Shown here: positions 6,209 through 50,700 of the stretch, piece after piece
Position numbering within the stretch: position 1 is the stretch's first letter
Layout of the letters: each line of letters starts with the position of its first letter
DNA from: Wolfiporia cocos
Taxonomy: Eukaryota > Basidiomycota > Agaricomycetes > Polyporales > Phaeolaceae
Length of the DNA: 64,000 bases
NCBI GenBank assembly: GCA_029448655.1
Contig: JACCLO010000014.1
Location: forward strand, 1,054,001 to 1,118,000
Reading direction: 5' to 3'
Made by a program: the position numbers and the translations under genes
Notes under the pieces: model-generated
The model's input: the letters and a program-made list of their open reading frames with translations, nothing else
The model's database searches: none
Told to the model about the DNA's origin: nothing

Positions 6209-6219
6209 AGCTCGACCTT
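6209..6219 (-). other. E1 primer-binding site for self-priming
   Basis: Sense AAGGTCGAGCT begins 1 nt after the LTR end and is a perfect 11-nt complement of LTR positions 6555-6545. No tRNA-type primer site was recognised here. Tf1 of fission yeast is known to prime from the 5' end of its own mRNA in this manner. Confidence 0.7.
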
Positions 6220-6220
6220 C

Positions 6221-6928
6221 TGTTACGGGTCGAATACCCGTTCGTATATTCGAGTCGCGAATATAGATCGTTCTTCTGCACGTAGGCACGTCGCCGTATG
6301 CAAGGCAAATACTCGTTAGATGCCTTCGGGTCCTAAGTGAAGTCCTTAGGAGATCGGTTAATATCCAATACGCGTTAGAGGATATAATCTGTTCAAGTGC
6401 GAGTCGAATAGAATATAAGACTCGCCTAAGTCCGAGAAGTCAGTGTGCACTTCGAGGACTTAGTCGTTCGATTGCTCGAGTGAAAAATACTGAGCGTAGT
6501 TTCCTACGTTTGAGAACGAGTATAAGACTTCTTGTTTATACAACAAGGTCGAGCTGAAGAGCCTCGACGGTAAGTACACGAGTTTTTATACTACGGTAGG
6601 TTTCAGGGGTCAAGTCTGTCCCAGATGCCACCGATACTATCTACGCTATAGTCCCAAATGTCTGATAAGTATGGAGTGATATATCTGAGACGATAGATAG
6701 GAATGATGGCGGTTGAACGCCATCTATCAGCTAATAAACGATGAACATGAAACGGTGGCAGGGTTGGATCTGCCAAAGATGAAACGAGCCCTATAGACTA
6801 GTACAACTGGGGATGCGCCCAGTAAGATCACGAGTAGCCAGGGGGGTTGGTTGCACAACAAGTCCCTGTATCGTATTTGCCCAGTGGTGAGTTCTGTCGA
6901 TATTCGAAAAATCAAAATAACCATAACA
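6221..6928 (-). repeat. E1 5' LTR (708 bp)
   Basis: The sense strand starts TGTTATGG and ends CGTAACA, giving TG...CA ends within a TGTTA/TAACA terminal inverted repeat. The right edge abuts the interrupted RT frame of E2, the left edge the E1 leader. Only one LTR is in the window, so boundaries rest on the termini, the reading-frame break and the priming site. Confidence 0.85.
6545..6590 (-). promoter_or_regulatory. E1 LTR TATA box and predicted RNA 5' end (self-primer)
   Basis: TATAAAAA on the sense strand at 6590-6583 lies 35 nt upstream of AGCTCGACCTT (6555-6545), which is complementary to the site just after the LTR (6219-6209). The transcript is predicted to start at or next to 6555, so U3 would be 6928-6556 and R-U5 6555-6221. 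Confidence 0.7.
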
Positions 6929-7461: not shown

Positions 7462-9609
7462 TCAGTCTAAAGGGAGTTGCTCGAGTTTGTGTTCCTCCAC
7501 GTAGGCACGACTGATGACCGATCCCGTTGAACTGGAGTCCATCAGTGCCTTTGTGAAGAGGGCGCGTCCGTCAGGGCGGTGGAGGGTGATCGGTACTTCG
7601 ATCTGCCTTCCCCGTTTTCCCGTCTGGATTACCACTACATTCCCTCTGAGTTTCTCACCAGTAGAGCCGAACCCCTGTGTTCCGCGTCTGGTTTCCCTAA
7701 TGCTTTTTACTATGTGCGTGTCTGGTGTCATGTTGCATTCGAGTATAAACTGGGCGATTCTGTCCCCGTACTCGACCTGATAATCTGTCCCGGTTTGATT
7801 ATTCAGTATGACTTTTAGTCGACCGGTGTAGTCTTCATCGACTACCCCGGCCTCCACGTCGACTCCCTTCAAGGCGAGTCCGGATCGTGGAGCTATGCGA
7901 CCGTATACACCGGGTGGCATTCGGATCATTATGCCTGTATCCACGGTGATACGTTTCCCGTTTGGTATAACGACTTCCTCCGCAGAGTGAAGATCGTAAC
8001 CCGCGGCTCCTTCACTTTTGCGCTCAGGGGGAATTGCCCACGGGTGGTCTAAGTATATGTCGAGCGTGACAGCCTTCTTCTTGGCTCGTCGATGCCGCAT
8101 TTTCTTTTCCGTCTTTTTCTGGACTGTAGGCTTAGATGCGTCTGCCATCTGCACATCTGAGTCTACAACCGGGTCTACGTCCATAGGCACATAGTTTACA
8201 TTAATAGAGGAATTAAGCACAGTTTTATCCTCCCGCCAAGCTCCGGTGGGAGGCTCCTCTGAGGCTGTTACAAACGAATCGTCGGAGCATGTTGAAGCTC
8301 CGTTGTCGTCACTAGGCACCATATCTACTGAACGTGGTACAGATACATAGTCAAATATCGGGCCCCCGGTTCCTAGCCCATATAGTCCATCCACCGGTTC
8401 GCTACCCTCCGAGGCAGATTCGGAGATAGAGACATTTACTGGTTCCTCGATCTCCAGAACTGAAAATTTATTATTAGAGAAGGGACGTACCTGAGTGAAT
8501 CCGGCTTCCTTCACAGCCTCCGGATTTTCCTTGGCCCAGGCGGCCACCATTCGCACGAAGTCTTCCTGGGATACTTCCCCAGGGATTTTTCCTGCTGGTG
8601 GGCCTTCGACGGCCTGGCGGGTGCGCGCCGGTTGTTGTGAGGGTCCGGCACCGGTGTTCCCTCCACTGGTAGCTGCTCGGGGCTTCCAGTTGGGTTGGTG
8701 CCAGACGGGCTTGTTGCAGCCCTTCCCTGGTGCCTCTGCTTGTGTCTTGCTGCAAGAGTGGCACTTCCTCTTGAGCAAATTGGCCCGTTCTTCTGCGGTG
8801 GGCTCGGACCGCGTGGTTCCCGATGACGATGTTGTCGCCCGACCCTTTCCTTTGTCGGTGACGCCCTTACCCGTGTCTCGACCATGGCGCAGCTTTTCCT
8901 CGTCGCGGAGACGACGCATCGCATTGTCCGTACGGAGGATGGCCTGTTTCCAAGACTCGTAGTCTTCTGGAATCTGGATGTTGTATCCCCGTTGTGATTT
9001 GTCATTTACCGTGGCGGCGACGAAAGCGGAGTGTACTGCCATGTAGATTTCCTTCGGGATGGCGGCGGTGACCCAGCGATGGACGATCTGGTTCTCTTTG
9101 TCGTATCTCGCCTCCGAAAGAAGTCTTTCCAGCTCCTGGAAGTACTCTTCGCCTTTACCGATGGACATGCTGAGTTTTTCGGCTGCAACCGCCGACTTCT
9201 TTTCCAAGTCGGGGTCGTCGAACTTCTGGTGTAGTTCCCAGATGAACCGTAGCCAACTCAGATGCCATTGACCGTCACGGTAGTGTTCCCGCGTGAATGC
9301 CGTTACCCAAGCATCTACCTTTGGTCCCCGTATCAACGAGATGGCCGTGCCGATCTTCTTGCTGTCTGTGAAGAGCAGCGGCCGGTTGTCGTCGATGTAC
9401 AGTTTTAGGCGCATTACCCAGGCGATGAAGTTCTTGCCGGTGAAGGGTTCGGGTTCGCGCACCTTGGACTTGTACCGGGGGTCAGGTCGTGGCTCTGGGA
9501 GCATAGAGTACGCGTCCCATTGCAAGCTTGCCGGTTTCTCGGGCCGCCACATTGATGCCCATGTTCCCTGAAGAGGCACGGCTCTCCAGGTGTTCGCGTG
9601 CACGTTTGG
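7462..9609 (-). pseudogene. gag: E2 gag C-terminal part, dUTPase and protease N-terminus
   Basis: An open frame of 715 codons runs from the E3 insertion site to the TGA at 7464-7462; it begins inside gag rather than at a real start. The gag part includes capsid-like sequence (FTGKNFIAWVMRLKLYIDD) and a cysteine-rich stretch (CHSCSKTQAEAPGKGC) unlike a standard CCHC knuckle. A Ser/Glu-rich linker follows, then a complete dUTPase with all five motifs (GAAGYDLHSA, APRSGLA, GVVDEDYTG, GDRIAQFI, RGTQGFGST; about 8080-7640). The protease start reads DSSSTGS, where DSG or DTG is expected, a likely inactivating G-to-A change. Here dUTPase lies upstream of protease, as in betaretroviruses. Confidence 0.85.
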
Positions 9610-9614
9610 GGGGG

Positions 9615-10313
9615 TGACACAGACTAGACTGTGGGACTCACACTATAACCTAATAAGCGACTTGAAGGAGTTGCTGGAGGTTGGTGAGGAGGCTAGTGGG
9701 CGCAAGCAGAGATGATATGTAACTGTGCGAATGCAGAGAACAAATCTAAGGCTTATCCGCAGTGATAGCCCTACTTATATACATGCTTTGTTTGGTTACC
9801 GGTAAGGGAGCCAAACGTGAAGGTGGTCTGTGCGCAGTCATAACTAATATGGTTAAGTCGTAAACTACAATAGACCATGTGCGCCGGTAATGGCCGCACC
9901 AGTAAGATCGTTTGTTTGGACTGTAGGTCCATGTTGTGGAAGTGGCTGTATCTACGTTAGTAAGCCATGCATGTGATTCTTATATACCGGCATCGGGATA
10001 TGAGTAATCGTAAGGGCATTGGCATGTGATAACGAGCAGGCCGCTTATCCAATCGTACTGACATAGCCCGGTATCGGGATATGAGTAAGGCGCGTGACAC
10101 CGGAGGTTAGTCCGCTGAGTCATTGACGCGTACAAACGTGTTATGTACGTGTTGTTACGACAAGTGGACGTATACCGCGTTGTGTACGTGTTGTTTGGTT
10201 GCGTGTACGTGTAGACGGGCGCTTAGCAGCGTAAATGTCTACAAGGTCGTAGAAATACCAGATAAATAGGTAAAAATACGAGAAAAATAGTGGCATGTCA
10301 CAAATCTGTGACA
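9615..10313 (-). repeat. E3 3' LTR (699 bp)
   Basis: Sense ends TGTCACAG...CTGTGTCA. Same length as, and no difference seen from, the copy at 18911-19609 at a constant offset of 9296. It directly follows the polypurine tract. Confidence 0.95.
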
Positions 10314-10352: not shown

Positions 10353-13300
10353 TTACTTTCCTGTGGAGCCGAAACCACCAGTACCGCGCTCGGATTTAAT
10401 CTTTTCAAAGTAAGATTTTCCGTGTAGCGTAATATGCGGGTCCTTAGCAACTTCGCAGATGAGCTGAGCAATCTTATCACCGGCCCGAATATCAATAGAT
10501 ATGTCGGAGTGATTCCGGAGAATGATGATTACTTCGCCTTGATAATCGTGGTCGATAACGCCACCCATTACGTCTATGCCTTTGCGGGCAAGACTAGAGC
10601 GGGGGGCGATACGTCCGTAAGTGCCGAAAGGTACCTGGATCTTCAGTTTGGTGTTGTATTCTGTCTGCCCGTGAGCTGGCAGAACGTCGCCTGTTGCAGT
10701 GTACAGGTCAAACCCAACCGAGTCCTTGGTTCCCTTTTCCGGCATTCGGCCGCCTTCACCGACTACGATTTTCAAATCCGCGTTTTGGTTAATGTCAGCC
10801 GACATCCATCCCCCGTCGGGGTGTCTAACCATGCGTTGCTTAGGGTCCTTCGCAAATTCTTCGCGATACTGCGGCCAGTCGTCTGGCCACGTGCATTCGT
10901 CGGCTTCCCAGTCGTCGCTATCAGGGTCGAAGACGTGAACTGCTTCTTTCCTTCTAGCTGAGCGCCTGAGGGGGACATCCTGCATTGGAATGGCGTGTGA
11001 AGCCTTGTATTCCTGCAGAATGTCGTATGCCGTGTCGAGATCGGCTTCGCGTACCCAGGAGTCGTCATTGATACCGAACCCTTTCCATCGGATTCTGTAT
11101 TCAACTCTTCCTGCTCGGAGACGATGATCTAAGATCTTCTCGACTTCCCATAACTCCTCGCCGTCGACCATTTCTGGTTGAGGCTCTGGTTTTTTCTGAT
11201 GCACCGGGTCCTTGTACATGACCAACTTGGAAGCGTGGAATACTGGGTGGTAAGCCCTGTATTGCTCGTCCATGTGTACCCTAAAGGTGACCGGAGATAA
11301 TTGTTCAATTATCCTAAATGGTCCCAAATAGCGTGGACTAAGACTTCTTTCGGAGTCTTGCCAGCTACGGGCGTCAACGAGAACTTTGTCGCCGACTTTA
11401 AACGGCACCGAGCGCTTATGTTGATCGTAGTACCAAGACCAGCGTTCGGCAGCCAACTTCATAGCTGCCTTAGCTTGTTCTTGTGCTGACCATCTGGCGT
11501 AAGCAATGGCATTTAAGTCCGTGTATTGTGTTGGACGTAAATTCGTAGGTCCTGCGTTAGGGTGCCTTCCTAGTTCGACAAAGAATGGACTATTCTTTGT
11601 TGTCTCACTAGCCGCGTTGTTGTATGCAAATTCAGCCGTTGGGAGAAACCATGACCAGTTATCCTTCTGAATAACATCGATGTAACATCTAAGATATTGT
11701 TCCAGGATTTGGTTAACTCTCTCCGTCTGGCCATCCGCTTGCGGGTGATAGGCGGTTGTCATTGACCGTTGGATTCCCAATTGTTCACACCATCCCTTGA
11801 ACAAGTCAGCTGCGAATTGCGGGCCTCTATCCGAAATGATTTGTTTCGGAAGTCCGTGGTTCGGATAGATCCGGAGGTACAGGAGGTTCGCTAATTCTTT
11901 TGCCGTTATCTTGTCTGACGTGGGAATGAAGTGCGCTCGCTTGGTAAGCCGGTCCACTATTACCATAATAGCATTGAATTGTTTCAATTCGCCGCTGGGT
12001 GGTAAGTGGACGATAAGGTCAATTGTGACGGTGTCCCAAGGTGCTTCCGGAACTGGGAGCGGTTGCAGGGGTCCGTACGGGGTCTGGTTGTGGTTCTTCA
12101 TGCGTTGACATGTGTCACAACCTTCCACGTATTGCTTTACCATCGTGGTCATTCCAGGCCACCAGTAATTACGTGATAGAAGTTCATAGGTCTTCCATCG
12201 TCCGAAGTGTCCGGCCGTCACATGGTCATGATGTAACTCCAGAATCTTCGTGCGCAATTCTTTAGGCTCTTTTGGAACGTACACTTTTCCTCGTCTGAGG
12301 AGTAATCCGGCCTCCATGTTCCATTCCTGGAGATCTTTACCGAATTCCTTGGGACCACTTTTCAGTAGTTCCTGGTAATCCTTGGTAATTTGATCGTCCA
12401 TGAGGGCTTGTCGGATTTGTCGGAGAAGGTCCTCGTCGCCTGATTGTATCTCCTGCTGTGACGCTTCTAGCGCCCTAACCGTAAAGTATTCCGGTTTCAG
12501 CAAAATTTGATCGCGATTGTCGAGTTCCACCCCCTCTTCATGGTCTGGCCTCCGTGACAGAGGATCAGCCGTAAGCATTGTTTTACCGGGTTTGTGGCAC
12601 ATGGTGAAGTTGAACCTTGTCAGGTAAAGACTCCATCGTGCCTGTCTCCGGGTTAGCCGTTGTGCCGATTTGAAATATGTCAGATTGAGATGATCCGACC
12701 ATACTTCAAATTTGTGTGGGTGTCCTTCGAGGTAATGTCTCCATTCCTCTAGAGCGCGGATGATTGCGAGCAACTCCTTATCGTAAATCTCATAGTTCCT
12801 TTCGGGTGCTGATAGAGATTTCGAGTAAAAGGCTACCGGGTGCCAGAGCTTATCCTCCGAAGAGTATTGCGATAGCACTGCACCAGTTGCGTAATCGGAA
12901 GAATCCGCTTCCACGCGGAACGGGGACTCCTGATCTGGGATCCGGAGTATTGGAGCCGATGTGAAAGCTTCCTTGAGAGTTTGGAAGGCTTCCGCTTGTT
13001 CGGGTCCCCAGTTCCATTGCGTGTTTTTCTTGGACAATTCGGTTAACGGCTTAACCACTTTGGAGAAATCTTTAATGAACCGCCGGTAGTAGTTGGCGAA
13101 GCCAACAAAGGCCTGGACGTCCTTCACCTTGGCAGGTGTAGGCCAGTCCATTACGCCGGCTACCTTCTTAGGGTCCATTTCGACTTTTCCTTTGGAAATG
13201 ATCATTCCCAGGTATTCAATACTGCTTTGTTCGAAGAAGCACTTTTCAGGCTTCGCGAACAAGTCGTTGTCTTGCAAGATTTGTAATACTTGCTTGACAA

Positions 13301-14888
13301 TGCGACGGTGTTCCAACAGGTCGTTTCCAAACACAAGGATGTCGTCTAGGTAGACAATGACCTTTCCTTCTCTGATAAGGTCACCTAGAATATCGTTCAT
13401 CATGTGTTGGAACGTGCTGGGTGCATTACAAAAACCGAAGTACATGACTACGGCTTCGTAAAGGCCGTTAGGCGTAATGAATGCGGTCTTCCATTCATCT
13501 CCCTCCTTGATTCTTACGTTGTTGTAACCCCAACGCAAGTCGAGCTTCGTAAATATCGAAGCCTGGCTAAGCTTATCGATAAGCTCGTCTATGCGTGGGA
13601 GAGGGTACCTGTTTTTAATGGTCAAGTCGTTTACTTTTCGGTAATCGACTACCATTCGGGCTCCACCGTCTTTTTTAGGGACGAAGAAGACCGGGCTCGC
13701 GATCGGGGATTTTGAGTGTCGGATGTAGCCCTTCCGTAACTCTTCCTGAATCCACTGATCTAGCGAGTTCGCCTCCTGAGGAGACATCTTGTATGCCTTA
13801 CTTGGGGGCGGTAGTACCGCGTCATCGGGGAAGTCGATGGCGTGGTCGTATGGTTTCCGTTCGGGCATCCTTTCGGATGCGCGTTGAGAAAATACCGTGG
13901 GACCAAACTCCTGGTATTCCTCCGGAACCAAGGATTTCCATTTCTGGAGATCCGCATCTGTCAGGAATTCATCATCCGACTTCTCCGTTATCGACTGAAT
14001 GGCATCGATAAGGAGTTCCGTTCCTTCGTCAAGGGTGTTCACCCAAGCGACAAGGGGATTCTCAGGCTCCTCTAAGCCGAGAAAATCTATTGGAAAATCG
14101 TTGATGATCTGATAGATGTTGCGGGGTTCGATTTCGTCTTCTTCCTCAGAAATCGAAACCCGTTTGCCATGTTTGCATTTTTCCGTACACCGATATGTGA
14201 AGGTTCCTTCCGGCCAATTGAAGTCCGGGTTGTGTTTCAGGAACCAGTCATATCCGAGGATCACATCCGCATTTTGTACGTCCATTACGTACAAGAATTC
14301 GGTGGACTTGTGTTCCTCGTGCACCATATAAGCTTTTACTGCCATATTGATATTACCGGCGGTATTAGAGGTACCGTCGGCGTTGCGAATCTCGAGAGGC
14401 GAAGGTAGTTTCTGAGTGACTAACTTCTCCTCATGGACGAGTTTCTTATCTATGACGCTTATTGATGCACCGGTGTCGATTAATGCCATGGCGTTTACTT
14501 TCTTTCCATATACCCACAGTTCCACTTCGATAGAGAACGATTTATTGTCGTCTCGAGAATCGTTTCCATGTACATTATACAAAGTGAAAAACTTCGACGC
14601 GAGCGGGTCAGGATAAAAGTATTTTACAGGAGGGGCACGTGTAGCTAGTGTCCTTGTCCTCCGGGCAAAGTCCATTGCCGAGTTACCGAATATACCGAGA
14701 TGGGATACCGGGTGACGTACGACCGCCTTATCTTCCCACAAGATAAGGGGTCTCTGTGAAGCCTCTTCGTAGAGGTGCGCTTCTTCGGGGCGCTGTACAC
14801 TCCCAGCCGCTGCGGGGCTGGTGTGTTCTTCACAGAACGTCTTCGAGACGTGTGGTTGGGGCGAGGGGAACCGAGATGGTCCCGACAT
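10353..14888 (-). CDS. pol: E3 pol polyprotein with C-terminal dUTPase (1511 aa)
   Basis: Domains by residue: aspartic protease with DTGA (138-141) and ILGYDWF (about 210); RT with YLDD (513-516); RNase H (ADSSDYATG about 660, SDHLNL about 731); integrase with HHCC zinc site (about 887-929) and D957, D1020, E1056; chromodomain (about 1246-1296, ending with the WKGF-type strand); then a dUTPase (about 1375-1511) that forms the extreme C-terminus. All five dUTPase motifs are intact: DSVGFDLYTA, APRSSLA, GVIDHDYQG, AGDKIAQL, RGTGGFGST. The frame is +1 relative to gag and overlaps it by 59 nt. The first ATG is at 14888, so expression could be by frameshift or reinitiation. A dUTPase placed after the chromodomain differs from both neighbouring elements. 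Confidence 0.95.
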   Translation of the reverse strand: MSGPSRFPSPQPHVSKTFCEEHTSPAAAGSVQRPEEAHLYEEASQRPLILWEDKAVVRHPVSHLGIFGNSAMDFARRTRTLATRAPPVKYFYPDPLASKFFTLYNVHGNDSRDDNKSFSIEVELWVYGKKVNAMALIDTGASISVIDKKLVHEEKLVTQKLPSPLEIRNADGTSNTAGNINMAVKAYMVHEEHKSTEFLYVMDVQNADVILGYDWFLKHNPDFNWPEGTFTYRCTEKCKHGKRVSISEEEDEIEPRNIYQIINDFPIDFLGLEEPENPLVAWVNTLDEGTELLIDAIQSITEKSDDEFLTDADLQKWKSLVPEEYQEFGPTVFSQRASERMPERKPYDHAIDFPDDAVLPPPSKAYKMSPQEANSLDQWIQEELRKGYIRHSKSPIASPVFFVPKKDGGARMVVDYRKVNDLTIKNRYPLPRIDELIDKLSQASIFTKLDLRWGYNNVRIKEGDEWKTAFITPNGLYEAVVMYFGFCNAPSTFQHMMNDILGDLIREGKVIVYLDDILVFGNDLLEHRRIVKQVLQILQDNDLFAKPEKCFFEQSSIEYLGMIISKGKVEMDPKKVAGVMDWPTPAKVKDVQAFVGFANYYRRFIKDFSKVVKPLTELSKKNTQWNWGPEQAEAFQTLKEAFTSAPILRIPDQESPFRVEADSSDYATGAVLSQYSSEDKLWHPVAFYSKSLSAPERNYEIYDKELLAIIRALEEWRHYLEGHPHKFEVWSDHLNLTYFKSAQRLTRRQARWSLYLTRFNFTMCHKPGKTMLTADPLSRRPDHEEGVELDNRDQILLKPEYFTVRALEASQQEIQSGDEDLLRQIRQALMDDQITKDYQELLKSGPKEFGKDLQEWNMEAGLLLRRGKVYVPKEPKELRTKILELHHDHVTAGHFGRWKTYELLSRNYWWPGMTTMVKQYVEGCDTCQRMKNHNQTPYGPLQPLPVPEAPWDTVTIDLIVHLPPSGELKQFNAIMVIVDRLTKRAHFIPTSDKITAKELANLLYLRIYPNHGLPKQIISDRGPQFAADLFKGWCEQLGIQRSMTTAYHPQADGQTERVNQILEQYLRCYIDVIQKDNWSWFLPTAEFAYNNAASETTKNSPFFVELGRHPNAGPTNLRPTQYTDLNAIAYARWSAQEQAKAAMKLAAERWSWYYDQHKRSVPFKVGDKVLVDARSWQDSERSLSPRYLGPFRIIEQLSPVTFRVHMDEQYRAYHPVFHASKLVMYKDPVHQKKPEPQPEMVDGEELWEVEKILDHRLRAGRVEYRIRWKGFGINDDSWVREADLDTAYDILQEYKASHAIPMQDVPLRRSARRKEAVHVFDPDSDDWEADECTWPDDWPQYREEFAKDPKQRMVRHPDGGWMSADINQNADLKIVVGEGGRMPEKGTKDSVGFDLYTATGDVLPAHGQTEYNTKLKIQVPFGTYGRIAPRSSLARKGIDVMGGVIDHDYQGEVIIILRNHSDISIDIRAGDKIAQLICEVAKDPHITLHGKSYFEKIKSERGTGGFGSTGK

Positions 14889-16821
14889 TGGCGACGGTGG
14901 TGGCGGGGGTCGAGGGTCCTGCTGAGCTTGGGTCAGCCGTCACTTCTTCCCAGATCGTTCGGGCACGATACGTCTTGCCATCCGCGGGGGGCGCCGAGTA
15001 CGGCTTCTTGCCAGAAGCCTGTCCCTTTCCACTACCCGAAGGAGCAGCCGTGGTCTTTCCAGACGCGGCAGCTGCATCCTTCGCCCTTTGTTGTTCGGCC
15101 CGCTGAGCGGCAGGCACGAACGTTCCCGCGGCCTTGTCTGCCGCAAGCTTAGGACACTTGTTGAAGTAGTGTCCCGTCTGCTTGCAGTAAGTGCAGACGG
15201 CGTTGGCGGTGGCGGCGGGGGCTTTGGCGGGCGCCTTTCCCTTGTCCTTCTTTGTCTCCGACTTCTTCGCAGAAGTGGAGGACGTCTCCTTCTTTTCGGC
15301 AGGGGCCGAGTCCTTCTTGGCGGCCTTCTCGAAGATCGAGCCCTTGATCTTGTCCGGATATGACGTTTGGTACATTTCCAGGGCGAAGTCGATCAGAGGT
15401 TCGATGTCGGTCGGGGCCTTGAAGAACGGAGTCTTGCCGAGGACGTTCAAGGTGTCCTTAACCTTTTCGGGGAGAGTTTCGGTGAACTCCCAAACCAGGG
15501 TCTCGTTGGCGGTTTCCGATAGGCGACCGAGGGTACGGAACCGTTCGCAGTAGTTGAAGTAGTTCGACTCTGCGAGTTCCTTGCCCTTGGTACCGTAGTA
15601 GCCTCGGATTTCCTTTTTTGCGATTTCCTTGTCCGTCATTTTACCGTATTGGACCATCACCGACTTGGTGAAGTCCTCCCATGTACCGAGGGGCTCGCCG
15701 TTTCCTGCCTTTTTGATAAGAGGCGAGAAAAATTTGTAGGCGTCCCCGGTTACTCGGAACAGGGCGGTAGTAATGCGGTCGTGGTCGTCGTAAACTCGGA
15801 GGGTGCCGAAGTAGAGACCCATCTTCTCCACCCATTCCTGTGCGGTCACCTTTCCAGATGATCCAGAGAATTCGGGGGGAGGGGGGATTTTCAGGTTTTG
15901 AGGCAGACCTGGAATCTGCGGGGCGACGGCTGCTGCGGCAGCGGCTGCAGCTTGTGCGGCGGCAGCGGCCTCGGCTGCACGGGCTTGAGCATTACCGGGG
16001 GCCGGTGCGGGTTCTTCCGGGGGCGTGCGGATGCCGGGAGGGTTGGGAACGGAGGGATTCTTGCGAATTCTCCGAAGTTCCTCGTCAACCTTCTCCATGC
16101 GCTCTGCGAACGCATCCTCGAGGTCGTCCAGCCGGGACCGGTAGTCCTTTCGGAGCTGCTTCTCCATTTCGGAGAGCTTGGCGGTGTACTCCTGTCGGAG
16201 TTCCTTGCCGAGGTCCACCATGGTGGACAATACCTCGTTCCGGACCGAATTGACCGCTTCGTGTAGCTCGTCTTGGGCCTTCTGTTCGATTGCCCTGGAT
16301 TGCCCAGCCAGGGAATCGATTCGTTCATGGATACGCTCCAGGCGGGCGTGCACCATTCGACCTAGGGTGTCGGTGGTGTCATGGCTTATGGCCGCACTTC
16401 GTTGTACGGCGGCATCGATGATTGGCCCATGTATGGACCCATCCACCTTGTGGTGTTCCTCCTCAGGAAGGTACGCCTTGAGGTTGTTCTCGACAGCGAC
16501 ATTGGTCTGTCGTGTCGGACCCGAAAATTCCATTTCTAGGGTGGTGGCGGGCCCGATAGGGCGAGTTCGACGAGCCGGTGGGTATCCGGCAATGGGGGAG
16601 CCTGGGCGTGTACCCATGGGGTTGGTCGGAGATTCCCTTTGCGGGGGAGCGAACTCCGGCATTTCCTCTTCCTCTTCCTCTTCTTCTCCCTCGCTTAGGT
16701 GCTCCAGCGTCACCAGTTGCTGGGTTCCCGAGGGACCAGCTACCGGTGTCACCGGGCCTTCTGAGCGGAGGCGCATCTTGCGGGGAGCGAGGGGAGTGCT
16801 GACGGAGGAGGTGGAAGACAT
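14830..16821 (-). CDS. gag: E3 gag (663 aa)
   Basis: An acidic run of Glu sits near residues 45-57, a helical/coiled-coil region (RIHERIDSLAGQ onward, then KELRQEYTAKLSEMEKQL) at about 165-255, and an Ala-rich linker after that. A retrotransposon gag capsid domain follows (PPPPEFSGSSGKVTAQEWVE, then TLPEKVKDTLNV, about 315-480), then a Lys-rich linker and one CCHC zinc knuckle (CTYCKQTGHYFNKC, about 545-560). It ends inside the start of pol. ATG at 16821 is the first in frame after the ORF1 stop, with a 149-nt gap to ORF1. Confidence 0.93.
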   Translation of the reverse strand: MSSTSSVSTPLAPRKMRLRSEGPVTPVAGPSGTQQLVTLEHLSEGEEEEEEEEMPEFAPPQRESPTNPMGTRPGSPIAGYPPARRTRPIGPATTLEMEFSGPTRQTNVAVENNLKAYLPEEEHHKVDGSIHGPIIDAAVQRSAAISHDTTDTLGRMVHARLERIHERIDSLAGQSRAIEQKAQDELHEAVNSVRNEVLSTMVDLGKELRQEYTAKLSEMEKQLRKDYRSRLDDLEDAFAERMEKVDEELRRIRKNPSVPNPPGIRTPPEEPAPAPGNAQARAAEAAAAAQAAAAAAAAVAPQIPGLPQNLKIPPPPEFSGSSGKVTAQEWVEKMGLYFGTLRVYDDHDRITTALFRVTGDAYKFFSPLIKKAGNGEPLGTWEDFTKSVMVQYGKMTDKEIAKKEIRGYYGTKGKELAESNYFNYCERFRTLGRLSETANETLVWEFTETLPEKVKDTLNVLGKTPFFKAPTDIEPLIDFALEMYQTSYPDKIKGSIFEKAAKKDSAPAEKKETSSTSAKKSETKKDKGKAPAKAPAATANAVCTYCKQTGHYFNKCPKLAADKAAGTFVPAAQRAEQQRAKDAAAASGKTTAAPSGSGKGQASGKKPYSAPPADGKTYRARTIWEEVTADPSSAGPSTPATTVANVGTISVPLAPTTRLEDVL

Positions 16822-18910: not shown

Positions 18911-19609
18911 TGACACAGACTAGACTGTGGGACTCACACTATAACCTAATAAGCGACTTGAAGGAGTTGCTGGAGGTTGGTGAGGAGGCTAGTGGGCGCA
19001 AGCAGAGATGATATGTAACTGTGCGAATGCAGAGAACAAATCTAAGGCTTATCCGCAGTGATAGCCCTACTTATATACATGCTTTGTTTGGTTACCGGTA
19101 AGGGAGCCAAACGTGAAGGTGGTCTGTGCGCAGTCATAACTAATATGGTTAAGTCGTAAACTACAATAGACCATGTGCGCCGGTAATGGCCGCACCAGTA
19201 AGATCGTTTGTTTGGACTGTAGGTCCATGTTGTGGAAGTGGCTGTATCTACGTTAGTAAGCCATGCATGTGATTCTTATATACCGGCATCGGGATATGAG
19301 TAATCGTAAGGGCATTGGCATGTGATAACGAGCAGGCCGCTTATCCAATCGTACTGACATAGCCCGGTATCGGGATATGAGTAAGGCGCGTGACACCGGA
19401 GGTTAGTCCGCTGAGTCATTGACGCGTACAAACGTGTTATGTACGTGTTGTTACGACAAGTGGACGTATACCGCGTTGTGTACGTGTTGTTTGGTTGCGT
19501 GTACGTGTAGACGGGCGCTTAGCAGCGTAAATGTCTACAAGGTCGTAGAAATACCAGATAAATAGGTAAAAATACGAGAAAAATAGTGGCATGTCACAAA
19601 TCTGTGACA
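18911..19609 (-). repeat. E3 5' LTR (699 bp)
   Basis: Upstream LTR of the minus-strand element, with the self-priming site just inside at 18908-18898. Apparent identity to the 3' LTR indicates a very recent insertion. Confidence 0.95.
19033..19077 (-). promoter_or_regulatory. E3 LTR TATA box and predicted RNA 5' end
   Basis: Sense TATATAAG begins at 19077, 34 nt upstream of the self-primer AGATTTGTTCT (19043-19033). The spacing predicts transcription starting at the self-primer, making U3 566 nt and R-U5 133 nt. Confidence 0.75.
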
Positions 19610-39788: not shown

Positions 39789-41502
39789 TCAAGTATAGTT
39801 TTCATTCCAGAGTCCCAAGAGAACATCCACACGAGTGCTGCAGAATAGCAAGCACGATCATGAGACGGCACAGTCATCGAAGGTACCTACTCACCGCAAG
39901 ATTCCTCGCTCATCCAATTTCGGCATCTCTGCCTTGAGCAGGGATGCCCACCGAGTCGCATCCGGCATGGCGCGATCAGGATGGGTCCATAACACAAAGT
40001 TAACATAGTGGAGCTTCTCATAGTCCTTGTTGGAGAACAGCTCATTGAGCTGAGGGCACAAGTCCTTCCTGAGAGCGGATACAGTCCTTTGTAAGTTCTC
40101 CTCCGCATCTAGGCTGTACACAGGTCGGTCTATGACAACCGACACCTCGCGCAATTCCTTCGATACGTTGGATTCGAGGATGCGGCGCATCCAGGCATAT
40201 CCGACCTTCTCACAGTTCAAGGCTTTCAAAACGACCGTCTCCAGGAGGTTGCACTGTGCGAGGTCAAATACATATCCTATTGCGAGTGAGGATCGGTGTG
40301 CACATACACAGTGGGGAAGGTCATATCATGGACGTACCGATGATCGCATCAGAGATCTGAACATTGCCTAGGCATGAATTGGGAGAGAGTTTCAAGGAGC
40401 GGAGAGACCGGCTGCACTGCTTGAAGAGCTCATGAAGGGGCTTTTTATAAGCTCCGAGATGCCTGCTGGCAAAGGATGCCTCGGCATTAAACTCGAAGCT
40501 CTGGAGGCCAGTGACCACTCCTGCGGCACACAGGTGCCCAATCAGCACCTTATTGGCCTCGACACTGGAGGAAGTCTCGTTGTCTGAGCAGATCACCAGG
40601 TCACTCAGCCTCACGGAGGGAGGACAGCGTGTGATTGCAAGACTCGCACAGGGGGCCGTGCTCGTGAATAGCACATTTTCGCATCTGAGGCGGACGAGGC
40701 TCGGGAGTGCACAGACGAGACGCCCAAACTCGCGCACCTTCGGGAACGTGACGTGATGCAGTCGGAGCGTCGTGACAGAAGAGAATGCGGAGAAGTAGAA
40801 GAAGATGAGCGGATGGAAGTCGCCTGGCTTCCAGATTGCACGCCCGATGACAAGACGCCACACGAGAGGCAGCTTGCCCGCGCCCATGATGGCGAGTGTG
40901 CCCAGCTGCGGAACTGGCGCCCGCTCGCCTTTTTTCGCTCCACCCACCACACGTACCGTTCTCGCTTGCTGGAGGAGGTCTGGCTGTGTCCGCGATCGCC
41001 TCGCATGTCCTTGGACGTGGCTCCGGTCGTACAGAGCGAGGTTCCGCTGCATCCAGTACCGACTCCTCGGCGTCCACGCCTTGCACACAAGGGCGCAGGT
41101 CTGCAGCCTCGGAGTGTCATTCCACTGCCAGTCGATTATACGCTCGCAGACCTCCGTTGGCAGCTGCAGTGGCCTCCTCGAGGACGGATCACTCTCCGTC
41201 AGCGCTGGACTCGGGATGCGTCCGATGTGTCTCCACCCGGGCTCTGTATCTGCGTCTATCCTTCAGTCGTCTCTCTAGAGTGTAGATGGCTCACTTCTGG
41301 CTTCCGCACACTTCTCTCGCGTGGTTTGTTCGACGGCACCGAGATCTCGTGCTTCCTGCTGCAGCGCTGCGGACGGAGCGCTTCGAACTTCTTGCCCTGT
41401 CTCTGCTGCCTTTGCCGTGTCTACGTGGTCCTGGCCGTCCTCTTTGATCGGCGCTACGGCAGCTTCCAGGGTGCATCGCTTCGCGCCATTTGCTTTGGCC
41501 AT
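39789..41502 (-). CDS. F-box protein D, four exons, intact (516 aa)
   Basis: Exons: 41502-41295, 41249-40338, 40276-39895, 39837-39789, with introns of 45, 61 and 57 nt in the same positions and phases as A and B. Exon 1 starts MAKANGAKRCTLEAAVAP; a TAA lies in frame upstream, which fixes this Met as the likely start and guided the choice in A and B. Exon 2 has LPTEVCERIIDWQWNDTPRL and Leu-rich repeats. Exon 3 reads VFDLAQCNLLETVVLKA, and exon 4 ends TRVDVLLGLWNENYT. It is open throughout. The predicted role is an SCF-type adaptor, by analogy only. Confidence 0.8.
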
Positions 41503-42465: not shown

Positions 42466-42599
42466 GAGGGACTTCAGTGCCGGAGATGCATCTTTAGAGA
42501 CACCGCAGATGCATCTGAGGCTCTCTAAGCAATCTTAACGCCCAAGTGTGCTGCATAGATGCATCTGAATAAAATAAGATGCATCTGTGCAAGAAATAC

Positions 42600-42666
42600 C
42601 TGTGCAGGGTTCGAACACTTGACCTGGGATTAGTGAAGTCACAACCTGTACCACTTCGCCAAATGG
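42600..42666 (-). ncRNA. tRNA-like module 1 of the TIR element
   Basis: The sense strand has an A-box-like TGGCGAAGTGGT and, about 45 nt later, a B-box-like GTTCGAACCC, then TTATTTTATT, a possible Pol III stop. The T-stem pairs poorly and no complete cloverleaf forms, so it is not a functional tRNA. The copy in 54672-54988 keeps both boxes. Confidence 0.5.
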
Positions 42667-42962
42667 TCTTGGTATCTGGTCACATACTTGTCAATATGAT
42701 CCATTTAATGTCCTTTCATTGCTGTAGCTTGTTAATTGTCAAGTCACACCTTAGTGCAATGTTCCCATATTGCCCTGTAGGTAATTTATGACAGCATCCT
42801 TACCTCATTGCAGATACATATGGGTTGTGGGATACATTAATAAAGAGATGCATTCTGAGTTCAAGGAACACTTGAGCTTACTGACATATGAGCAGAATGT
42901 TAAATTTTTTACAACCGTTATTATATCAACTACTGAATATATATTTGCACAAGACCTTCCTT

Positions 42963-43043
42963 TCACTAACCACTTTAGCTGAGTGGTTTCAGCTGCTGTT
43001 TCGCTGAGGTCTCATGGTTCCTGGTTCGATTCCCGGCTTGTGA
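42963..43043 (+). ncRNA. tRNA-like module 2 of the TIR element
   Basis: TTTAGCTGAGTGGTTTCAGC (A box and a good D-arm) is followed by GGTTCGATTCC (B box) and, after the module, TTTATTTTG. The acceptor stem pairs at about 5 of 7 positions with extra bases before the D-arm, so it is tRNA-derived rather than a tRNA gene. Copy 2 (about 46550-46634, minus) keeps the same boxes. Confidence 0.55.
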
Positions 43044-43150
43044 TGCTTTATTTTGGTACTAACGAGCGCCTAATTTCGATGACTTAGAGTGCCCCAGATG
43101 CATCTGTGGTATCTCTAAAGATGCATCTGTGGCACTGAAACTCTACATGA

Positions 43151-43517
43151 CTATGGAGGGCAGATATGTAGAGGTCTTGGGAGCATCAGGGGAGAAGTTG
43201 TAGGTGAAAGATGAAAGTGGTTATTCAGAGGAGGGTGGGCCATCATGGCCTGGGAACTTACCCTGTGTCTACCTGTGTCTATAGCAACGGGTAGGGGGGC
43301 TATGAGGTTCATGAAAGCAGTAGAGCCAGACAGGAAGTGGGAGAATGCTGTGAGTCCTCTTCTTGTGGTAGAGATGATTTGAAGGTTGAGCGCTGGTGAG
43401 GCTTGGCGAAGGTGGGGGCATGTGTCTTCGTGGAGGGGGCAGTCGTGCAAGATGTGTGAGCCAGTCTGGATGGTAGTGCTATTGCAGGGGCAGTAGACGG
43501 TCTCAGAGGAGCCCATT
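43151..43517 (-). pseudogene. LINE relic: C-terminal zinc/RNase H tail
   Basis: The minus strand reads SETVYCPCNSTTIQTGSHIL followed by HDCPLHED, the C-C-H-C pattern after the RNase H domain of fungal non-LTR retrotransposons (normally C.CG...ET..HIL..CP). It continues the relic at 45398-45909 and is separated from it by the foldback element. Confidence 0.6.
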
Positions 43518-45397
43518 CAGTCACTGTACCTGGAACAGCCAGTCAACCAATGGGTACGATGGGCTTGTACACCGGTAGAGCCGACGTCGGCCGACGAATC
43601 CCTCGTTGCCTGCACGTCCAGTCAGCCCACCAGATCCTTGTAGCTGGAACATGGGGGTGGGCCAATGGGGGGTCACAGTGCCCATGTTTCCGTGAGCCCC
43701 AGTCGGCCCACCAGCCAAATTTCCATGTACCTGGAACACTGGGTGGGCCGACAGGGGGTCATGGTGCCCATGTTTTCGTGAGCCCCAGTCGGCCCACCAA
43801 CCAAAAATCTACATACCTGGAACATGGGGTGGGCCGATGGGGGGTCACGGTGCCCATGTTGCTGCAACTCACAGTCGGCCCACCCAGCAAATGTTCATGT
43901 ACCTGGAACATGGGGTGGGCTGATGGGGGGTCACGGTGCCCATGTTTTCATGAGCCCCAGTCGGCCCACCAACCAAAAGTCTATGTACCTGGAACACTGG
44001 GTGGGCCGACAGGGGGTCACGGTGCCCATGTTGCCGTGAGCCCCAGTCAGCCCACCAACCAAAAATCTATGTACCTGGAACATGGGGTGGGCCAATGGGA
44101 GGTCATGGTCCCATAGCTTGTGGTATGGGTCACAATAAGTATCATGGTAAGCATGCATATCTTGCAGTCATAGTCACAGTAAAGGGCACATAGATTGCAC
44201 CAAGCTTTCAATAAGCATCTATAGCTCATTGCAAGGCCTAGGGTGGCTTGTACATAGCATAGAAATCAAAATGGACAATTGTTTTACAATTATGCTCGCG
44301 ATAAGGGTCGCGAATAAGCGCCCATTGGTCGCGGTAAGGGTCGCGGTAAGGGTCGCGGTAAGGGTCACGGCAAGGGTCATGGTGATGGTACATGTCTTGT
44401 GGTAAGGGTCACAGCAAGGGCCCATAACTAGCACTAAGCCTTCAATAAGTGTTGTGAGGCTTGCGGCATCTCATACACAACATGGCAATCCAAATTGACA
44501 ACTGGCTTATAATTATGCTTGTGGAAAGGGTTGTGGCATGTGCCCATTGCAAGCCCTTACATGTGCTACTGATGTTTTTGTGAGCTAACTGCAAGCTTAC
44601 CGCGAGCTATGGGCGCCTATTTCGTGACCCCTACTGTGAGGGTATTGACTAGGAATGCTTCTATTTTATTCTGTGCTATACAAACAAATGCTTACCATGT
44701 GCCATTCAATATGTAATGTCACAGTTAATCTTCATAACACACTGAAGTTACCAGATATGTAGCATTTTGGTTGGTGGGCTGACTGGGGCTCACAGCAACA
44801 TGGGCACCATGACCCCCCATCAGCCCACCCCATGTTCCAGGTACATATATTTCTGGTTGGTGGGCCGACTGAGGCTCATGAAAACATGGGCACCGTGACC
44901 CCCCATCGGCCCACCCCATGTTCCAGGTACATGAACATTTGCTGGGTGGGCTGACCGTGGGTTGCAGCAACATGGGCACTGTGACCCCCTGTTGGCCCAC
45001 CCCATGTTCCAGGTACATAGATTTTTGGTTGGTGGGCTGACTGGGGCTCACGGCAACATGGGCACCGTGACCCCCTGTCGGTCCACCCAGTGTTCCAGGT
45101 ATGTAGACTTTTGGTTGGTGGGCCGACTGGGGCTCACGAAAACATGGACACCACGACCCCCTGTTGGCCCACCCCATGTTCCAGGTACATGGAAATTTGC
45201 TGGGTGGGTCAACTGGGGGTTGCGGCAACATGGGCACCGCGACCCCCCACTGGCCCACCCCATGTTCCAGCTACAAGGATCTGGTGGGCTGACTGGACGT
45301 GCAGGCAACAAGGGATTCGTCGGCCGACGTCAGCTCTACCGGTGTACAAGCCCATCGTACCCATTGGTTGACTGGCTGTTCCAGGGTACAGTGACTG
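43518..45397. mobile_element. 1.9-kb foldback element with minisatellite arms
   Basis: A large inverted repeat: it begins CAGTCACTGTACCTGGAACA and ends with the near-complement ending CAGTGACTG. Each arm (about 43518-44115 and 44760-45397) begins with a unique roughly 130-bp part, then has about six units of an 85-87-bp repeat containing the word GTACCTGGAACATGGGGTGG. The 640-bp centre is not inverted. Long ORFs in the arms are translations of the repeat. It interrupts the LINE relic between the segments ending FVPSEHTIQS and starting SETVYCPC; the exact TSD is unresolved because the ends are palindromic. Confidence 0.8.
44297..44400. repeat. 12-bp tandem repeat in the foldback centre
   Basis: Successive copies of a GGTAAGGGTCGC-type unit, degenerating on both sides, in the non-inverted centre of the foldback. 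Confidence 0.7.
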
Positions 45398-45909
45398 TAT
45401 GGTGTGCTCAGAGGGTACAAAGCATTGCTAGCACTCGCCGAAATGTCCATGTCCGAGTAGGGTTTGGATTAGGTGAGCATGAACACCGTGAGTGCCAGTG
45501 TAACAGCGGTGGAAGGGGTGCAATTTAAGGGAGGGTGGGTTAGGAAGCACAGTGCCAGCAAGGTTGCGATGCAGCTGATTTTCCATTCTGTGCACCATTG
45601 TTCAAGTGCCGATGCGAGCACGTTCGAGTAGCCACATAAGAACTGGCGGGATGAACATGGGGAGGGTGACCGCTGACCGAGCAAGGCCATCGGCGCAGGT
45701 GTTGCCAGTGATATTTGAGTGACCGGGGCACCAATGGAGCATGATGCACAGGTTGGGTCATGTTTGGAGTGCGGTGTCAATGGCCTGCCGAAAAATGACA
45801 CTGTGCATCTGGCCCGTATGGTGGTATCGTAGGCAGTGGTGAGGGTGGAGATCTGCACGACACCAACAGCAATAGGTATACTGTTCTCAGCCTCATCACA
45901 TCTTTCGGG
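45398..45909 (-). pseudogene. LINE relic: RNase H domain
   Basis: In one minus-strand frame: FRQAIDTALQT, a stop, then LCIMLHWCPGHSNITGNT and CADGLARSAVTL, the RNase H end typical of LINE ORF2. Further on come GHGHFGEC and FVPSE, the conserved run before the zinc tail that resumes at 43517. Stops and frameshifts are present. The upstream edge abuts the Brr2 pseudogene near 45910. Confidence 0.65.
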
Positions 45910-46442
45910 GTGCTCGAGAAGCTTCAATGGCTACATTCATCTATGAGCATAAGAGTCAGTCTAGGCCACGCCAGTCAATACAACAGAAAACATACCTTTT
46001 CAGCTCCCGTTGGTGCACAAAGAACTGTAGCAGTCTTTGGAATCTCCACCTTTGGCTTCTCATCCACACCTATTGTGTCCGTCTGTGCCTTCGCTTTCTT
46101 GTCCCCGGCAAGTTCTCTAGAATCCAACCAAGCCCCTTCTCCCACATCACAACCTCAATGTTGATGCGCTCATCAGCATTGCTCCGAATGAGCTTGGTAC
46201 ACCAGACAATGACATCTCAGTTCTTTGTGATGATGTGGAAGCTCTGGTACTTGACAGCTCCATGAGCTCATTCTCATAGCTTTGACTCCGGACTGAGGAT
46301 GGAAAGGATGGCAGCGGCCTCCTCTGTAGCCATGACAGGGTCAGGGTAGACATCGGAGATCTGACACTGGACCCAAAAACCATCGATGGAGTGCAGGGAA
46401 ACAATGTCTTTGGCGACCTGAGCCTTGCCCTGCTGCACAGAT
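45910..46442 (-). pseudogene. Brr2-like helicase pseudogene, downstream segment
   Basis: Continues the N-terminal part at 55762-54997 after the TIR element. The minus strand reads IVSLHSIDGFWVQCQISDVY, then NRDVIVWCTKLIRSNADERI and WEKGLGWIL, matching the plug region of spliceosomal Brr2 (SNRNP200) helicases as I know the family. After an apparent internal deletion, LCAPTGAEK follows (Walker A, normally APTGAGKT). It is split from MNVAIEAS by a 55-nt intron (45941-45995, GTATGT...CATAG). Frameshifts and the altered Walker A show it is dead. Confidence 0.75.
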
Positions 46443-46797
46443 GACGTACCTAGAGTTTCAGTGCCACAGATGCATCTTTAGAGACACTGCAGATGCATCT
46501 GGGGCACTTCAAGTCATCGAAATTAGGCGCCCGTTAGTACCAAAATAAAGCGTCGCAAACCAGGAATCGAACCAGGAACCATGATACCTCAGTGAAACAG
46601 CGACTGAAACCACTCAGCTAAAGCAGTTGGTGAGAGGAAGATCTTGTGCAAATATATAGTCAGTAGTCGATATAATAACAGTCGTAATAAAATATAACAT
46701 TCTGCTCATTTGTCAGTAAGCTCAAGTGTTCCTTGAACTCAGAATGCATCTCTTTATTGATGTATCCCACAACCCATATGTATCTGCAATGCGGTAA

Positions 46798-47740
46798 TGT
46801 CACAAGCCAATTTCAAAGCCTAGTAGAACACGCTAGCTTGGCACCCCACTCACGCCATACGCACGCTACAGCACTCTATCCGAGCCCAGCTGGAACCCCA
46901 CGGCAACGCTAGTAAAAGCCCTCCGCAATACAGGCCACTACGGGCACTAGCAGGCCACCAGCAGTCTAACCCTAAAACTCAGTCCAAGTCCCGGCAGCAT
47001 GAGCCATACGCTGCCTAGTCCCTAAAACCCGGAGTCACGAGTCAACCCCTAGAGTCCAACAGGCTACGATAGCACGACGGTACGCCTTGCGCACACACTC
47101 AGGCTAAACCGCCACCGTACAATACGCTATACGCCGACTAGGGGCACGACCTACACTCGCACGTGACCCAGAACACTAAACCTACCACCTCACGTCCCCA
47201 CCGCATGGATGGACACTCCCCATTACAGGCAATAGACCTAGTCTACGAGTCCACGCTACGGCTTCCCTCCAGTACCGCGACCTCTGGGAACCCGGGCCGT
47301 GAACGATCGACCCTCAGTACCGTAACTTCGGGAACAGAGGCCCCTGACGCGTCCTCTGACCACACCCTGTATAGATCCCTGCCCGTGGGACGGCAGAACC
47401 CTGACCGATGAACCAACGGTCGTCCCGCCATTACTGGCATGAACCCGACCAACGAGGAACACCGGTCGCATACCCGATCGTGGCAGACCACGCCCGATCA
47501 CGGACTTAGAACCCCGCCATTACCGGCACGTAGCCCATAGCCAGTTAGATACCAGTACGTAGACGCCCCAGAGCCCCCGTACACATGTACAAATAACTTA
47601 GGAGTATATATGCCAGACAGTCTTGAGCGTAAACCTCAGACTTGTCTTGGCCTTTTGTGCCTTGAGATGCCCGGACCAGGAAGGCGCTTTCATGCGACCC
47701 ACCTTCCCCCGGTGTGTGTCTTAAGGTTGCGCTTGTGTCA
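46798..47740 (+). repeat. E4 5' LTR (943 bp)
   Basis: TGTCACAAGCC...GCTTGTGTCA. TATATA at 47605 lies 33 nt upstream of AGACTTGTCTT (47638-47648). The R/U5 part resembles the E2 LTR (shared GTCTTGGCCTTT and CCTTGAG words), whereas U3 is much longer and unrelated by eye. Confidence 0.93.
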
Positions 47741-50700
47741 TAAGACAAGTCTCAACCCCCGGGGAGGTGTTCACCACTCCCCAACCCCGGCGCACGAGGG
47801 GCAACGTGCATTTCTCATTTGCCCGTCATGCGGTAACCCCGCTGGCGTGAGGAATTACGCCGCCGCCCAGGCATGGAAGGGCTATACCCGACGACCAGGG
47901 TCAAGGTCATACACCCGTTGCATCCCAGGGTTAAGGGATTTGGGATCTGGGGATCAGTAGAGCGGCGTGCGGGGGACCTCTCCCGCCGTTGACTGGGAAC
48001 TACTGGGCCAGCGTCGCGCAATGCGGCGCCAAGGCTTTGGGTTACAACCCCACCAGCGTAGACGTGTACCCGGCGCATAATAATCAAAAGCGCTAAGGGG
48101 CCCGCTGGCAGTCTACCTGGGCACCGCCTGCTTATTTACGGCCATTATCGGCTCGACTGTACGGACATTACAGTCCCCCCGGTTACCATAGAACCCAGCG
48201 CCTAACCAGCGGCTGAAGGGCCCAGACAGCGGCCAGTACCATTACGCCACTTGGCATGTACTATAGAATTTTACACGCCCCATCACATAGGCGGATAGAT
48301 CCCGGTCCCCCGGTATCCCGGATTAGCTCTGGGGCTGGACGAGGATTCGGAGGCTGTGTTTTCTTGCCGGCCTTGGGAAGAAAACCCCTTGGCGTTTCTT
48401 GGCGCATCACCGAAAAGTGATGGACACAGATTAGAGTGGATCGAAAGTACCCGAGAAGTAGGAAGTTTGTAGGCTCCACCCCGATAGCAGTTATAGACTG
48501 AATGCCACAGAGGGCGGGGGTCGCTTCCGAAAGAATACAGGGGAAATAAGATCGCGACTCCACTTTGCGTACTATAGTTTCAGTACATACACACTCGTTA
48601 CGTACACCGCCGGAGAATGGGCTTGGTCGCCCCCGGCACAGGACCTTTTCCTTTTGGACATTGCCGCGAAGAACGCCGTGGCTAGAACGATAAGTCTCCG
48701 TGCCGCCCTACCATGACTGGTCGCGCGAAGGGCTCAGTGGCACCCAAAGTCCTAGGGGGACAAACCGTGCCGCAGATTGAAAGCGGTCACCCCGAAGATG
48801 AAACACCACTGGACCCCGAGTACCCCGCAGACCAGGGGCCGCTATGGGAGATACATACACCCTCGTTTAGGATTGGCAATATATTCCTTCTCGATAAACC
48901 CGTCCGACGTAACGTCTAGTCCAACATATCCACAGTCCACAATACACAGTCAATTAGGCAGCAAGGGTACCCAACTCCCTGCTTCGTACAGAAGGCCTGC
49001 ACCGTAGCGGAATCCGACACCGGCTCGTAAAGTAGAAAAGCCTCACCAGCACTTTACGCAGCCAACGCCGCCACGCACTACACCGTGCTTGGGAAAAGGA
49101 GGTACAAACTCCCGAGCATGCCGAACGACTATACGTAGTTACTAGCCCATGTATACTACGGACTGTAAATATCCCAAACAATATACTCTACATCGGTAAC
49201 CCCGAAAAGACCAAAAGTAGGAAGTACACACCGGTCACTCCGACGGCACCGCAAAATCCAAGGCTGCCGTGAACATCTTGGGGGCCGCGCCTCCCTTGAG
49301 CACTCGGTATGCTAAGGACTAGCAACGCTGTGAAACCGCGTACCTACTAGGGGGAACATAACCCGAATGAGAGTAGGGATGGACATGTATAAACTGGACA
49401 AAGGAAAAAGACGTATACGAAGAAACTGGACAACAAAGGAAGGAGACCGACGGAGCGAGAGGAAGCAGTAAGCTACGCTACGCAAGGACGAAGGATCGAG
49501 CTTTCGAGCTCTCTGGATACACCAAGCACGCGGACGCCGAATCAGTACCTACTCCGCCATAACACGACACCCATCCGCCATGACCGGTATCTACCCCGAC
49601 TGGCACCGGCAGTCTGTCCCGAGACCGACGTAACCAAAAGCAAGTACACTGGAGAGGAACTCGGGGCCTGGACGCACTTCGTCCGAATAGGAACCGGCTC
49701 ACGGAATAAAGCCAAGGAAGCGAGTATCGGACTCACCACGAACCAGGTATGCCCCTTAAATTTAATTCATGGACTATACTCTGCCATGGGGCAAACCACG
49801 ACCCCGAGCGATGAATCATTCCGCTCTGTCACGAACCCTAGCGGTAAACCACCCCGCTACGTACTTTCTATTTGGAGGAATGGCCCACGGGCACTCCACC
49901 CTTTTGACTCTGTTATAAAATAAAATATATACCCTGGGAAGTAGCGAAATAACGCTCCCACTTAATACTTTATAAAAATATATAAATCGATGCAACCCTC
50001 AATAGTAAGGGATAACATCACGTCACGTACCACGGGTCTGGACGAGGGGAAATGGCAGCCTCGCCCAGACTCACGACCCATAATACATGAAACGCGAACC
50101 CAGACCACGGGCGCGTGGAACCTATCCAGTACGACCCAGACCAAGGGCGTACATTTACAATGAAGCGTGTCCCAACCCAGGAACGGGAAAGGGCACGTGG
50201 AATTTTTTATGACACCCCCGGGCGCAACCCTCCCAGACACACGGAGGACCGGGCATGCCGACGACCTAACCCTGCGGGGAGGTCATGACCACGCCTACGG
50301 GCATAGGGACATTGTACCCTGGTAGTAGCACATGTACTACCAACGGGAATAATTGAACCCGCCACGTCCAGAATGGCCCTAACCGGCGAGGACGTGAAGG
50401 GACAGTGCGACGGAACATTCCGCACTGTCCATACACAAAAAGTCGTACTAAATGATTCGAAACGGAATAGATCATTTAGGGAACCGAAACGACACCCCAT
50501 GGAATATCGAACCGACTCGCGGACCAGATCGTACAGCAATAATACGACCAGTCACAGCTCGAACGGCCAGAGTAAGAGGAACATTTTGAGAACATATGGA
50601 AAGTACTCCGAGAGGAAAATGGCACCGGTTACGACCCCGGCTGAGCCACCTCGGTAGAGGAAATCCCGTCTGATAGGCAACTACCCCACACAGGGAGTCG

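Follow-up and report, generated by a model that had tools for sequence, protein, structure and literature searches.

The window analysed here, a stretch of 64,000 nucleotides (nt) at C6:1054001-1118000 of a 64.4-Mb genome in 76 contigs, carries four long terminal repeat (LTR) insertions, E1 to E4, each flanked by a 5-bp target duplication (GATAG, ACAGT, GGGGG and GGTAA, respectively). Feature coordinates are numbered from the first letter of the window, and those prefixed C6 refer to the contig. E1, E2 and E3 lie on the minus strand and E4 on the plus strand. Comparison of LTR pairs and flanks placed the 5′ LTR of E1 (708 nt) at 6221-6928 and its 3′ LTR beyond the window at C6:1052464-1053171, and the LTRs of E2 (371 nt) at 21190-21560 and C6:1048906-1049276. 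The LTRs of E3 (699 nt) occupy 18911-19609 (5′) and 9615-10313 (3′), and those of E4 (943 nt) 46798-47740 (5′) and 53729-54671 (3′). The two LTRs are identical in E3 and in E4, 99.4% identical in E1 and 98.65% identical in E2. Both E1 and E3 were inserted between the two LTRs of E2, and this nesting order is consistent with LTR divergence, since the host element E2 has the most diverged pair. As presented below, the sequence evidence makes it very probable that E1 to E4 are self-priming Gypsy retrotransposons of the Tf1/sushi type.

In all four elements, the primer binding site (PBS) next to the 5′ LTR and a segment within that LTR are perfect 11-nt reverse complements, exactly as given in a preliminary description of the locus. 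The PBS at 6209-6219 matches the putative self-primer at 6545-6555 in E1, 21178-21188 matches 21283-21293 in E2, and 18898-18908 matches 19033-19043 in E3, all on the minus strand; in E4 the plus-strand pair is 47742-47752 and 47638-47648. Watson-Crick matching ends at nucleotide 11 in every case, the next position being a G.U pair in E2 and E4. One nucleotide separates the LTR from the PBS in E1, E2 and E4, and two do so in E3. Scanning 145, 107, 157 and 137 nt upstream in E1 to E4 revealed a single TATAWA motif per element, at -35, -32, -34 and -33, respectively, so that the spacings first described (1-2 nt past the LTR and 32-35 nt downstream of a TATA box) are upheld. The first base of each 11-mer is an A preceded by a pyrimidine, as would suit an RNA 5′ end at this position.

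Could this complementarity have arisen by chance? When the 60 nt after the LTR were shuffled (5000 shuffles per element, with the E2 LTR trimmed to 329 of its 371 nt), matches of at least 11 nt appeared in 0.0006, 0, 0.0002 and 0.0006 of trials for E1 to E4. Sliding the post-LTR segment across the entire window, with true related sites left unmasked, gave such matches at 11-22 of about 8,300-8,500 positions per LTR (14/8479 for E1, 11/8533 for E2, 22/8390 for E3 and 12/8320 for E4, that is, 0.0013-0.0026), and a lone 11-mer match is thus conceivable. Against chance stand its occurrence in three lineages, the fixed position, the conserved copies and the coupled change described below. Because E1, E2 and E3 belong to separate reverse transcriptase (RT) lineages, the joint probability of coincidence is very small, and we consider this explanation negligible.

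The cases are three rather than four, as E2 and E4 are relatives. The preliminary description had regarded the primers of E1, E2/E4 and E3 as unrelated; the three lineages stand, but the E3 primer is identical to that of E2 at 7 of 11 positions and to that of E4 at 8 of 11. All differences between E3 and E2/E4 are C/T transitions, each matched in the PBS. Eight of the 11 primer positions vary among the elements, and the partner has always changed to match, with the caveat that homology of the E1 11-mer to the others is not established.

A PBS of the transfer RNA (tRNA) type usually begins with TGG. This motif is missing from the 20 nt after the LTR in all four elements. The genome has 49 located tRNA genes, and Rfam and ARAGORN searches gave no matches within the window. 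Priming by a tRNA, through its 3′ end or an internal fragment, would make the LTR match incidental. Such primers serve many LTR elements, and half-molecule tRNA primers are described in plant copia elements (PMC6317226; this and the other papers are cited from excerpts). However, tRNA priming would leave unexplained both the perfect, TATA-spaced 11-mers of three lineages and the coupled C-G/U-A change, and we judge it very improbable. The elements instead resemble the Tf1/sushi group, with a PBS that complements an LTR segment at the expected RNA start and whose non-tRNA character was judged by the missing TGG alone.

Self-priming is also favored by the genomic copies. Of 93 copies retrieved, 91 retain both 11-mers in intact, paired form (E1 33/35, E2 8/8, E3 30/30 and E4 20/20), and the two exceptions are single transitions. 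These copies are a high-scoring, non-random set drawn from 8 of 41 rows for E2, 30 of 40 for E3, 20 of 40 for E4, and 30 of 40 for E1 plus five stretches from an SH3_Tf2-1 search; three of the 93 are the E1, E2 and E3 of the window itself. Within the E4 set, identity of the stretch between the 11-mers falls to 77%. Perfect E1-type sites number 291 genome-wide, compared to none for the reversed-pattern control. Among 217 E2/E4-type sites, the pair at which E2 and E4 differ is C-G in 169, U-A in 34 and, by subtraction, discordant in 14, which bears out the compensating change first noticed between these two elements. The 50 of these sites for which letters were obtained comprise 38 C-G, 9 U-A, 2 U.G and 1 C-A. 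It is reasonable to think that families still jumping keep primer and PBS matched while both drift, because a mismatch would cost priming. Five 10-kb stretches chosen from 150 listed in the SH3_Tf2-1 search, which was aimed at additional families, were all E1-type, 93.7-96.5% like E1. A pattern for new primer types gave 10 sites vs. 4 and 4 in the control, eight of the 10 being E2 type with a CpG change and one E3-like. One scan of viral contigs with the E3 RT region produced six pattern matches and no relatives.

Phylogeny places the elements in the corresponding group. In an RT-RNase H tree, E1, E2 and E3 clustered with seven fungal and five vertebrate rows at 100/98, separate from eight plant rows, Ty3 (a long row) and one arachnid row. 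We take the vertebrate rows to represent sushi. Within that clade, the three elements form three branches of an eight-row group together with five fungal rows, again at 100/98. The tree comprises 25 rows, namely Ty3, the three window RTs (E1, E2 and E3) and 21 sequences selected by name from 237 proteins; Tf1 and sushi-ichi lie outside this set, and E4 has no RT. The nearest named RT relatives come from Sparassis, Antrodiella, Phanerochaete, Moniliophthora and Lyophyllum, which we take to be basidiomycetes, and they suggest a basidiomycete host.

RT, RNase H, integrase and SH3_Tf2-1 domains are encoded by E1, E2 and E3, and a chromodomain follows at the integrase end in E1 (6.8e-16) and E3 (1.1e-10). 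The corresponding E2 region (L009:2742-3437, minus strand) scores 16.8 bits, below the cut-off of 25.1, and could be degenerate or divergent. According to Pfam, the E1 pol frame (2-4390, minus strand, continuing past the window edge) carries a dUTPase ahead of RT, RNase H, integrase, SH3_Tf2-1 and chromodomain; in this frame, part of which leaves the window, no protease scored above the Pfam cut-off. E3 pol (10353-14939, minus strand) consists of protease, RT, RNase H, integrase, SH3_Tf2-1, chromodomain and a C-terminal dUTPase. The E2 frame downstream of the E3 insertion (7462-9642, minus strand) has its dUTPase at amino acids 539-662, and its first 28 bases belong to the E3 3′ LTR; it lies upstream of the E2 RT and is split from it by insertions. 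The three nested elements therefore place the dUTPase differently: before RT in E1, in an upstream frame in E2, and behind the chromodomain, as the last part of Pol, in E3.

RNA folding adds a further line of evidence. Minimum-energy folding recovers the primer-PBS helix in each of the four leaders (with 10 of 11 pairs in E2 and E4, whose U11 bonds to a different A), and the mean probability of its pairs in the fold ensembles is 0.91-0.97. Relative to shuffles, whole-leader z-scores are -7.39 (E1), -3.89 (E2), -4.04 (E3) and -3.43 (E4); a single shuffle folded as well as the leader for E2, and none did for the others. For U5 (from primer to PBS) without the 11-mers, the values are -5.25, -1.94, -1.50 and -2.67, and 0 of 100, 10 of 200, 14 of 200 and 3 of 200 shuffles were as good, in the same order. 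By these U5-alone scores, U5 is strongly structured in E1 and moderately in E4 and E2, while that of E3 is not clearly structured. The 325-nt U5 of E1 (6220-6544, minus strand) folds as a string of hairpins even without the primer helix, and its variable columns are fewer among paired positions (47/222) than among unpaired ones (45/125; Fisher p 0.0035).

In E2 and E4, U5 is predicted to form a hairpin (21189-21282, minus strand, and 47649-47741, plus strand) that shows compensatory changes among relatives. Over 21 E2/E4-type leaders, the E2-derived structure is paired in 93.9% of cells vs. 36.9-44.5% when partners are slid by 1-3 columns, and both sides have changed in 12 of 42 pairs. Exchanges of A-U/U-A, U-A/G-C and G-C/A-U occur in the upper hairpin in 4, 7 and 9 of the 21 rows. 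Four of five covariation measures exceeded all 500 shuffles and the fifth, the pair-type count, did not (49/500); conservation of pairing is poor in one short helix (68.3%). The test is favored by design, as the structure was taken from one aligned sequence and the rows are related. The alignment consisted of the two window copies and 19 of the 50 lettered sites (of 217), picked by eye as distinct types; the 31 omitted were mostly near-copies. In the same relatives, nucleotides 12-15 can pair with the LTR end, and these pairs are invariant and hence uninformative.

Since covariation in E2/E4 relatives extends well past the 11-mer, and the E1 U5 folds strongly alone, the structure may serve a separate function. 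The 11-mer helix might then simply close a leader fold used in packaging, translation or dimerisation, with priming achieved otherwise. Its location argues against this: one strand occupies the bases adjoining the LTR end, from which the minus strand has to be started if that end is to be made, and the other sits at the expected RNA 5′ end. We find this explanation very unlikely, too.

Self-priming also has to be set against several results that weaken the case. The pattern behind the 217 sites demanded perfection at the other ten positions, and the E2/E4 pair change may have been a single event. A neighboring CpG pair was compensated in only 2 of 14 changed places and left uncompensated in 12; the uncompensated CpG changes look like decay of dead copies. 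Primer length is ambiguous, as U11 of E2 and E4 can pair with the last A of the LTR or the first A of the PBS, and a fixed 2-nt spacer would imply a 10-nt primer in E1, E2 and E4. The 11-nt match is compatible with a Tf1-style cut between nucleotides 11 and 12, and 10 nt is possible too. In the predicted folds, the 11-bp helix supplies much of the z-score. Among changed cells of the E1 U5 helices, the pair was broken in 62 and kept in 22, and three cells had changed on both sides. Finally, the Tf1 leader adopts a three-duplex "pretzel" (PMC10085805); its central duplex is present in the window elements, but in eight tests the side duplexes did not clearly outperform shuffled probes (p 0.05-0.40).

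Taken with the conserved 11-mers, the covarying pair, the helix in all four folds and the RT phylogeny, the layout still agrees with the Tf1-type self-priming originally proposed. It is a known mechanism, ordinary for this group and well supported here by sequence. RNA polymerase II would start at the A of the 11-mer, as TATA spacing and the pyrimidine-A context suggest. The first 10-11 nt of the RNA could then pair with the PBS just past the 5′ LTR, a pairing that is evident in the sequence, while U5 would fold in between and join primer and PBS; this fold is predicted, with covariation in E2/E4, and presumably forms in the cell. By analogy with Tf1, the RNase H of the element would cleave behind position 10 or 11, leaving a 3′ end from which minus-strand DNA would be primed.

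E4 appears to be a passenger. Its internal region (47741-53728, plus strand) contains no gag- or pol-like frame on the sense strand, the longest stop-free run being 201 codons with no Pfam match (the Pfam scan covered this longest run). At 47922-48425 it is 78% like the E2 stretch that follows the E2 PBS. Since E4 is protein-less and yet carries an E2-like leader, E2-type proteins probably copy its RNA in trans. More tentatively, the self-primer might be presented by a U5 hairpin based on the primer-PBS helix instead of the Tf1 "pretzel." Such a hairpin would be kept by compensatory change in E2/E4 and common to autonomous elements and protein-less E4, and the leader would act as a tag for the RNase H cut and for copying in trans. 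The partly weak folding of U5 without the 11-mers counts slightly against this proposal, which we consider less likely than not.

The closest known systems are Tf1 and Tf2 of Schizosaccharomyces pombe. The primer of Tf1 consists of its first 11 bases, cut between 11 and 12, and the Tf1 PBS likewise adjoins the 5′ LTR (PMC7175516). The chromodomain of E1 and E3 and the SH3_Tf2-1 domain of E1, E2 and E3 are further similarities. In contrast, the genome studied here has three lineages with different primers, E1, E2 and E3 carry an extra dUTPase, and the side duplexes are unsupported, with a U5 hairpin in their place (by covariation for E2/E4). Self-priming is considered common in the Tf1/sushi group and the Tcn1 clade (PMC6317226, PMC10085805). 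Tcn1 of Cryptococcus neoformans and the moss and club-moss members of its clade, likened here by description and not by sequence, are also chromoviruses proposed to self-prime (PMC7175516, PMC6317226), whereas for SM-Tcn1 neither tRNA priming nor self-priming was found (PMC2864245). In Tj1 of S. japonicus and in Tosmo and Tcry of other fission yeasts, the PBS similarly complements the RNA 5′ end (PMC4600332, PMC10085805). By way of difference, these are ascribed a three-duplex structure (PMC10085805), which in the window elements is supported for the central duplex, and the excerpts mention no dUTPase for them (PMC4600332, PMC10085805).

In basidiomycete Gypsy elements such as PosPlaTy3 of Postia placenta and those of Phanerochaete chrysosporium, the dUTPase is reported at the N-terminal end of Pol, at its C-terminal end, or between protease and RT (PMC2864245). 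E3, with a C-terminal dUTPase, and E1, with one before RT, share this variability. E2 differs in that the domain lies in an upstream frame separated from RT by insertions, and the excerpt of PMC2864245 does not mention self-priming for the Postia and Phanerochaete elements.

Tf1 is an established case of self-priming, and the same has been inferred for many of its relatives; the value of this genome lies in a rich natural data set and not in a new mechanism. Its primers differ between lineages, of which there are at least three, and its perfect sites run into the hundreds. Some natural variants are compensated and others are not, and one non-coding passenger has a similar leader. Questions that such data could address include the manner of primer cutting, the accuracy required of the pairing, and whether the leader determines which RNA is copied by a given RT. 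What is added here are the covarying U5 hairpin of E2/E4 and its sharing by non-coding E4. Among the open-licence papers listed by our searches, titles and abstract openings announce neither this hairpin nor the coupled change in basidiomycetes.

Other features of the window deserve brief mention. Four related frames are clustered on the minus strand (23850-24836, 30964-31965, 34677-35927 and 40321-41262), one of them showing weak similarity to an F-box, below the threshold (E 0.0019). A large fold-back element (42466-54988) has 86-nt tandem repeats in both arms, one of which is interrupted by E4; the arms are 88-92% alike (42466-42756/54699-54988, 42800-43145/46451-46797 and 43513-44114/44800-45402). 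A second inverted-repeat element (27461-30315) has arms 98.8% alike (27461-27956/29821-30315) and another copy at 62919-63549. Between its arms lies an E2-like solo LTR (about 28863-29244) that has kept the E2 primer 11-mer.

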